Shown piece after piece: positions 4,157 to 4,901 of a stretch of DNA of 64,000 nucleotides; the first letter of the stretch is position 1; the number at the start of each line of letters is the position of its first letter. Source of the DNA: Pseudomonas sp. MM223 (GTDB taxonomy: Bacteria > Pseudomonadota > Gammaproteobacteria > Pseudomonadales > Pseudomonadaceae); contig OX352322.1 of the NCBI GenBank assembly GCA_947090765.1, positions 1,755,501 to 1,819,500 of the forward strand. The letters run 5' to 3'. The notes under the pieces were generated by a model that was not told where the DNA came from, did not search any database, and saw nothing but the letters and a program-made list of their open reading frames with translations. The translations under genes were made by a program, and so were the position numbers.

Positions 4157-4432
4157 TTAGTGCAGCCTGTTCTTGGCCAGCTCGATGTCGTTCATCAGGG
4201 CCTTGGCCATGGCCAGCAGGTAATCGGCTGAGCCCAGGAGTTTGTGGTCATCTTCCAGGTCGCCTTCGCGCACCAGGTGCTTGATGTAGCCCAGCAGCAC
4301 CGAGACGTGTTCGTAGGCATCATCGATCGGGACGCCGGGTTGCACGCGCAGCAGGTCGAGGGTGGGGTTGCCGGCTTCGAGGAAGGTTTCAAGGCCTGCG
4401 GTGAGGATGGGGGTGTTGTCGGTTTTTTTCAT
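4157..4432 (-). CDS. DUF3077 family protein
   Basis: A 91-residue, mostly helical cytoplasmic protein of unknown function. The segment LLRVQPGVPIDDAYEHVSVLL and the later MAKALMNDIE resemble the DUF3077 family, which occurs in several copies in many Pseudomonas genomes. The start MKKTDNT is preceded by GGAG about 11 bases upstream. The frame stays open far upstream, but that stretch is a folded leader (4433-4620) and not protein-like. Expression is probably controlled through that leader. Confidence 0.75.
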   Translation of the reverse strand: MKKTDNTPILTAGLETFLEAGNPTLDLLRVQPGVPIDDAYEHVSVLLGYIKHLVREGDLEDDHKLLGSADYLLAMAKALMNDIELAKNRLH

Positions 4433-4620
4433 GGTAGTAGCTCCGAGTAAGTGGAACTGCCACGCAAATCTTCTCACGGACCAGGCGGCAGTCGTACACG
4501 GGGTGAGAAACCGAGGGAGCTGCAAAGCTCGGCCAGACCGAAGTCTGCCCGCGTACGACTGCCATGACAGGCAAGCCAGGCAACTCACGACAGGTTCTCA
4601 CACCCGGTCACCAACATGGC
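4433..4620 (-). ncRNA. Conserved-looking structured leader or small RNA upstream of the DUF3077 gene
   Basis: Read on the minus strand, a 16-bp helix forms between GGCAGTCGTACGCGGG (4563-4548) and CCCGTGTACGACTGCC (4502-4487), with one G-U pair. It encloses a UUCG-capped hairpin (CAGAC-TTCG-GTCTG, about 4547-4534) and a CCGAG...CTCGG hairpin. Copies of the motif GTGAGAA flank the structure, and its complement TTCTCACCC lies inside, so alternative pairings are possible. The structure ends before the ribosome site of the DUF3077 gene. The design recalls the c4 antisense RNA family of phages and Proteobacteria; that assignment is a guess to be tested with a covariance model. Confidence 0.55.
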
Positions 4621-4770
4621 GACCCGGTGAAATTATCCCTGGGGCATTTCCCCGACAATTCAGCCGCTTCTGACCGCTGTGTAGGATAGTTCGCTTACTG
4701 CCTCAAACTGAAGTGCTGGGAGCAAGGTTCAGGAAAGTCTGACGTGTAGATTACTGCCACGCGGTCTGTG

Positions 4771-4887
4771 TGTAGGAGCGGCCTTGCGCCGCGAAAGGGC
4801 CGCAAAGCGGCCCCTCGGTTTGTGCGTCGACGCAGATATTGCCGGGGCTGCTACGCAGCCCTTTCGCGGCGCAAGGCCGCTCCTACA
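4771..4887. repeat. REP pair, class B2 (CGCGGCGCAAGGCCGCTCCTACA)
   Basis: Two inverted REP copies beginning TGTAGGAGCGG and ending CCGCTCCTACA, each followed inward by a GGGCCGC/GCGGCCC or GGGCTGC/GCAGCCC hairpin. It lies at the 3' end of the CurA-type reductase gene. Confidence 0.9.
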
Positions 4888-4901
4888 GGCTTTCGAGTCG
4901 G

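Follow-up and report, generated by a model that had tools for sequence, protein, structure and literature searches.

The leader at 4433-4620 on the minus strand of the window (the whole 64,000-nucleotide stretch of Pseudomonas sp. MM223 DNA analysed here) is a true C4 antisense RNA, and its sequence makes it likely that this RNA is released from the leader and silences the leader's own DUF3077 gene at the Shine-Dalgarno sequence. A search with the Rfam C4 model RF01695 returned 65.5 bits against a cut-off of 45, so the suspicion of a c4-like antisense regulator voiced in the original prediction was borne out. The 16-bp helix with one G-U pair, the UUCG hairpin and the second hairpin that had been described there are present as the three helices of the C4 fold. 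The proposal that the leader would define a new cis-regulated family fell, since the RNA belongs to a known one. The open frame seen to run through the leader is real (a GTG-initiated ORF, 4157-4588), and is merely an upstream extension of the DUF3077 frame. The gene and the parts of the RNA are as follows.

4157-4432, minus strand: DUF3077 gene of 91 amino acids with an ATG start (PF11275, 53.8 bits, cut-off 21)
4481-4569, minus strand: C4 antisense RNA, with RF01695 matched over its full length
4548-4563, minus strand: 5' arm of C4 helix P1, opening with GG
4487-4502, minus strand: 3' arm of C4 helix P1, partner of the 4548-4563 arm
4534-4547, minus strand: C4 hairpin P2 with a UUCG loop, from the Rfam match and the fold
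4510-4533, minus strand: C4 hairpin P3, from the Rfam match and the fold

The 89-nt C4 core folds at -45.5 kcal/mol (z -5.19) and none of 200 shuffled sequences was equally stable; for the 188-nt stretch as a whole z was -3.24, a value equalled by 1 of 200 shuffles. The best fold leaves the C4 body intact, and in the centroid fold part of the b' segment (see below) is paired inside the P3 loop. Covariation was assessed on a MAFFT alignment, not structure-fitted, of the 18 C4 copies found in this genome, and the structure tested was the RNAalifold consensus of that same alignment, which agrees with the Rfam C4 consensus. The results showed that 96.8% of the cells were paired and that 15 of the 28 pairs changed on both sides, as would be expected of the conserved covarying helices looked for since the original prediction. 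None of 500 shuffles matched the alignment on any of five measures, and in slid versions of it pairing went down to 33-43%. This pattern of substitutions indicates that the C4 structure is under selection.

The antisense sites were named after those of phage P1, a' being the strand between P3 and helix P1 and b' the P3 loop. The motif GTGAGAA had been noted on both sides of the RNA with its complement TTCTCAC inside and had been taken to mean mutually exclusive folds; the repeats are there, and the three elements are better read as a1, a2 and a' as in phage P1 than as a switch between two folds. These sites and the predicted promoter region are listed here.

4503-4509, minus strand: a' segment TTCTCAC, between P3 and helix P1, complementary to a1 and a2
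4516-4521, minus strand: b' segment AGCTCC, in the P3 loop, complementary to b2
4595-4601, minus strand: a1 site GTGAGAA, a 7-nt exact complement of a'
4471-4477, minus strand: a2 site GTGAGAA, a 7-nt exact complement of a'
4580-4586, minus strand: putative b1 site GAGTTGC, giving 7 bp with b' including one G-U, the longest Watson-Crick run being just 3
4439-4444, minus strand: b2 site GGAGCT, in the Shine-Dalgarno region (-12 to -7), with six Watson-Crick pairs to b'
4587-4636, minus strand: c4-a1b1 element (RF03163) below the family cut-off (26.9 bits against 46.7; E 0.00021 in one search and 0.0096 in another)
4653-4658, minus strand: predicted -35 element TTGTCG, matching the consensus, separated from the -10 element by 17 nt and aligned among relatives
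4630-4635, minus strand: predicted -10 element TAATTT, from sequence
4681-4692, minus strand: conserved box GAACTATCCTAC, 22 nt ahead of the -35 element, defined post hoc on these sequences

Across the 18 C4 loci of the genome, RF03163 was over its cut-off at nine, matched seven at E ≤0.01 and gave no match at two. The first eight DUF3077 codons, which lie by b2, show an identity of 0.62-0.79 among relatives, against 0.87-0.94 in the remaining frame. As a control we used the annotated phage P1 record, where a1, b1, C4, a2 and b2 stand in this order and are followed by icd; a2 and b2 are exact complements of C4 segments there, a1 and a2 are both TTGACAG, and the annotated b1, too, is not an exact complement. 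The window locus thus resembles the immI region of P1/P7 (c4-icd-ant; RF01695) in fold, in the order a1-b1-C4-a2-b2, in having b2 just before the start codon and in having a small first target gene. It differs in being chromosomal, in having no antirepressor after its DUF3077 gene and in belonging to a system of many copies with different addresses; moreover, no similarity between DUF3077 and P1 Icd was detectable (hhalign probability 0.1).

We propose that a promoter upstream of 4630 would produce a single transcript carrying a1, b1, C4, a2, b2 and the DUF3077 frame. C4 would fold into the known three-helix RNA, as its covariation indicates, and would be excised from the leader by cleavage at the GG that opens helix P1, with RNase P as the probable enzyme, by analogy with P1/P7 and Acinetobacter. 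A GG dinucleotide is indeed found at the start of helix P1 at this locus, and GG is the dinucleotide at the published C4 cleavage sites in the available text of PMC5320573, which for RNase P cutting cites work on P1/P7. Once free, C4 would pair through a' with a2 and through b' with b2, a complementarity seen in the sequence and in the permutations below, and by covering the Shine-Dalgarno sequence would block DUF3077 translation. As the transcript itself gives rise to C4, the system would be off at steady state; protein would appear as a pulse when transcription outpaces C4 accumulation, and also when the locus enters a cell lacking that C4.

The same leader might instead work purely in cis, with alternative a1/b1, a'/b' and a2/b2 hairpins serving as an attenuator or sensor and no RNA being released. 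In favour of this, the sites all share a strand and probably a transcript, there is competition between a1 and a2 for a', and the leader fold is stable. We nevertheless regard a purely cis-acting leader as unlikely, given the conservation of the compact C4 body together with a covarying helix that closes it, and its retention in the best fold. In addition, the available parts of a review and of a P1 paper state that C4 of phage P1 represses ant in trans by an antisense mechanism, and those of PMC5320573 report that C4-derived RNAs are an abundant class in Acinetobacter baumannii and seem to be processed out of longer transcripts. Release of C4 and repression at the Shine-Dalgarno sequence is the reading we favour.

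The genome holds 18 C4 matches (L001-L018), all above the RF01695 cut-off, and a complete small gene, read from the frames, follows 15 of them. The first gene is above the DUF3077 cut-off at L009, L013 and L014, matches DUF6124 and DUF3077 below their cut-offs at L001, L011, L015 and L017, and has a K-x-V-P-D-P-P-like start at L003, L005, L006, L007, L008, L010, L012 and L016; a Pfam scan of four of these eight PDPP-type genes found no family above cut-off. At L018 the frame after C4 has 36 residues, looks by eye like the beginning of a DUF3077 protein and has no Pfam match; at L002 and L004 C4 is followed by other small frames. Counted from the gene side, a same-strand C4 lies within 700 nt upstream of 11 of 17 DUF3077-like matches and is absent for the other 6. 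At L003, L005, L010 and L012 the order is C4, PDPP gene, DUF3077 gene, a layout resembling P1 c4-icd-ant; at L007 the DUF3077 gene is 1.7 kb downstream, with an integrase-core transposase frame intervening. First genes often start K-x-V-P-D-P-P or K-x-T-P-N-P-P (for example L003:1636-1878, L015:1632-1949 and L218:481-849), and such a proline-rich start near the initiation site may affect translation itself.

If C4 acts on the leader it comes from, its segments should fit that leader's sites, and we compared each C4 with its own and all other leaders by the longest Watson-Crick run between segment and site, using 10,000 permutations without a phylogenetic null. In the 18 loci the cognate mean was 7.83 against a non-cognate mean of 4.62 for b'/b2, 6.94 against 4.05 for a'/a2, 7.06 against 4.91 for a'/a1 and 6.39 against 5.06 for b' with the upstream region, each reached by none of the permutations. 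With duplex energies in place of runs, three of the four tests gave 0/10,000 and one gave 1/10,000. When the two runs were summed, the cognate leader was top or tied in all 18 rows and strictly top in 16, and both runs were at least 7 in 14/18 cognate pairs against 1/306 non-cognate ones. These comparisons indicate that C4 copies fit the leaders they come from better than they fit other leaders. The window locus, with runs of 7 and 6, is outside the 14 pairs: two other loci also give 6 bp with its b', equal to its own b2, and three give 8 bp with its a', where its own a2 gives 7. Specificity here would thus rest on a and b jointly. The fit is looser at some further points as well: the b'/b2 run is never above 4 at L003 and L008, a' does not match its own a2 at L018, and by duplex energy of the C4 3' part with the 90 nt downstream the cognate was first in just 10 of 18 rows, with the window locus eighth. 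Across 72 distinct loops (from 101 C4 rows) every test gave 0/10,000, and for b'/b2 the cognate ranked first, alone or jointly, in only 37 of the 72 rows because addresses recur among relatives; within the GTGAGAA class of 30 distinct loops the means were 7.5 and 4.97 (0/10,000), with the cognate first or joint first in 14 of the 30 rows. Loop sequences are particular to each of the 18 loci, which for this reason are probably regulated largely independently.

The pattern was then examined in genomes that had no part in finding it, with 14 C4 loci of G152 and 17 of G157 taken among the matches listed. Cognate pairing at each site was reached in 0/10,000 permutations in both genomes, the a'/a2 run was at least 7 in all 31 loci, and the b'/b2 run was 5 or less in 7 of them. 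Both runs were at least 7 in 9/14 cognate against 0/182 non-cognate pairs of G152 and in 12/17 against 0/272 of G157, and by the two-run sum the cognate was top or tied in 14/14 rows (strictly top in 12) and in 16/17 rows (strictly top in 15), respectively. A first frame of at least 35 residues followed 29 of the 31 C4, and at E 0.001 these frames comprised 15 DUF6124, 3 DUF3077 and 1 Bro-N. Of the 29 DUF6124 genes of G157, 27 lie within 500 nt downstream of a C4 on the same strand, and these account for 27 of the 35 C4 of that genome; 1,000 random placements gave no more than 1.

C4 matches numbered 41 in G152, 41 in G153, 38 in G156 and 35 in G157. In a survey of 148 genomes of the family, C4 was found in at least 97 and in 17 of 19 genera, per-genome counts being lower bounds because at most 27 candidates were scored in each; DUF3077 occurred in 24 of 148 family genomes drawn likewise, all 24 of them C4-positive. 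The tie between leader and DUF3077 genes that had been suspected from the one locus recurs elsewhere: of 57 named loci with a gene for a relative of the window DUF3077 protein, 52 have a sense C4, as do 6 of 7 further DUF3077 loci. The five without C4 were L094 and L097, with little upstream sequence before a contig end, and L077, L100 and L104, where the first gene is by eye decayed or absent.

The DUF3077 gene of the window lies between a BacA family gene, which we take to be uppP, and an ADH_N_2 oxidoreductase gene. DUF3077 and C4 were present in only 2 of 30 bacA/uppP loci examined, the window's own (L123) and L125, so the window locus is confined to close relatives. At L126 the oxidoreductase neighbour is present without DUF3077 or C4, and the locus reads as a deletion because the apparent last DUF3077 codons remain, as judged by eye; at L124 neither DUF3077 nor C4 was seen in the 646 nt upstream of the gene, up to the contig end, and the other 26 loci gave no oxidoreductase, DUF3077 or C4 hit within 1.5 kb. 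L125 has the same neighbours as the window locus. Its identity to that locus is 93% from the box as far as a1 and 94% over the main part of the reading frame, but drops to 39% for the b1 region, to 66% for C4 and to 60% from C4 to the ATG. It carries CAGTGC in b' and GCACTG in both b1 and b2, with a' and a2 as in the window, so that b', b1 and b2 all differ from those of the window yet match one another. The same alternative address is shared by L066 and L068. Either recombination or divergence with compensation could have replaced the address at L125, and the sharp block favours recombination.

A wider reading, which we put forward tentatively and would not yet back against its negation, is that these loci form an orthogonal system: dozens of Pseudomonas C4 modules would each silence only their own DUF3077- or DUF6124-type gene, with addresses that diversify and are exchanged as blocks, and with protein production restricted to pulses and to entry into a naive cell, in a chromosomal counterpart of zygotic induction. 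Since a shared address would mean mutual silencing, new copies would have to change address, and this forced change would lead to diversification and block exchange. If these readings are right, C4 is a highly copied regulatory module of Pseudomonas chromosomes with up to 41 matches per genome, DUF3077 and DUF6124, both domains of unknown function, gain a concrete regulation, and nature offers an array of antisense switches insulated from one another, which would allow their rules of specificity to be tested directly.

C4 belongs to the textbook biology of phages, where a single target has been studied well, and we weighed the relation of the window module to phages. The window protein had no match among 50,697 phage records at E 0.01, no phage DNA resembling window 4420-4640 was found at E 0.1, and plasmids gave one distant protein match with 40% identity. 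Two IMG/VR contigs carry a relative of the window protein with C4 and contain a terminase or integrase gene; their modules adjoin tRNA-Thr, like own-genome L009, and for that reason are probably the host flank of a prophage. phrog_36471, a PHROG family of virus-linked proteins, matches the window protein with 67.1 bits, which keeps a phage link possible.

That match, the first description of C4 in phages and the occurrence in the same bacterial family of phage-type C4 loci whose first frames are short or Bro-N-like (a Bro-N gene in one case) would fit a relic of a lost P1-like prophage with no present function. Such a relic seems quite improbable, more so than a purely cis-acting leader, in view of the missing phage matches, the host-flank look of both viral contigs, the bacA/uppP and oxidoreductase neighbours and the pairing preserved despite sequence change at the same locus (L125). 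The dN/dS of the DUF3077 gene, 0.17-0.32 against five relatives (0.05-0.32 over all 15 pairs among the six sequences), likewise speaks against decay and indicates that the gene is under purifying selection. The window module is chromosomal and probably not phage. The protein itself was modelled with two strands and two helices, and no informative match for the model was found.

An anti-phage role, one of the options suggested for C4 in Acinetobacter (PMC5320573, available text), would have the chromosomal copies act mainly against incoming phages with C4-regulated genes. The a-site TTGACAG of L005, L006, L007, L010 and L012 is identical to that of phage P1, as such a role would have it; the loops, however, fit the Shine-Dalgarno region of the adjacent gene, and phage DNA like the window leader was not found at the threshold given above. 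We give this role very little credence, and silencing of the adjacent gene is the function we favour.

Among known systems outside P1/P7, the Group 1 C4-derived sRNAs of A. baumannii share with this system the presence of many C4 copies in one genome. In the available text of PMC5320573, variability relative to P1/P7 is placed in a' (in the discussion, in a' and b') and targets are discussed and left unassigned, whereas here both segments vary and most copies match an adjacent small gene. In Burkholderia cenocepacia one C4 is in a transcription unit with isrK, according to the accessible part of PMC4603805; C4 shares a transcription unit with an upstream RNA there as it would here, and differs in that isrK-like hits occur, below cut-off, only at L001 and L004 of the 18 loci and not at the window locus. 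The hits at L001:1397-1485 and L004:1394-1485 are just under cut-off, lie between a1b1 and C4 and have a T run. Weinberg et al. (2010), as far as its text was available, lists C4 for Proteobacteria and phages, and in the part seen of a furfural-tolerance paper a P. putida DUF3077 gene is annotated as a pseudogene. A link of C4 with DUF3077 or DUF6124 was not found in the literature searched, with most subscription papers outside it, and in that same literature DUF3077 was named in a single paper and DUF6124 in none. Against this literature three things appear new: the gene family, the private addresses and the size of the system, which reaches 41 copies in a genome. The RNA itself is a known kind, and the new element, as far as searched, is its combination of dozens of chromosomal copies, a dedicated small-protein family and private addresses.

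The TAYCCTAC box precedes the C4 promoters at 4681-4692 and at own-genome L008, L009, L011, L013 and L015-L017, and where a promoter was recognised the distance from the start of GRAN-TAYCCTAC to that of the -35 element is 34-35 nt. It was found upstream of 52 of 53 sense C4 at the named DUF3077 loci, at a comparable position in 8 of the 18 own-genome C4, and in 1 of 30 C4 loci from the wider family. In the own genome the GRANTAYCCTAC box had 11 matches against 1 for the reversed pattern; ten of them are within 650 nt upstream of a C4 (eight at about 110-130 nt), and the remaining one is within a LysR-type coding sequence. A general C4 operator was considered for the GRANTAYCCTAC box and rejected, since the box was not enriched in 18 other genomes of the genus, where it matched 26 times and the control pattern 25 times, even though several of them contain 30-41 C4 apiece; at least one of these 26 matches, in G150, does precede a C4. 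The box is associated mainly with DUF3077-type loci. At L018 (around 6484123-6484868), where a short frame follows C4 and no a1b1 match was obtained, two copies of the box lie upstream at a distance of 338 nt from each other, and mir-2545-like hits repeat with a spacing of 336-338 nt. Finally, a long inverted repeat at 4764-4890, presumably of the REP type, lies between the oxidoreductase gene and the C4 promoter and gives sub-threshold hits to microRNA families.
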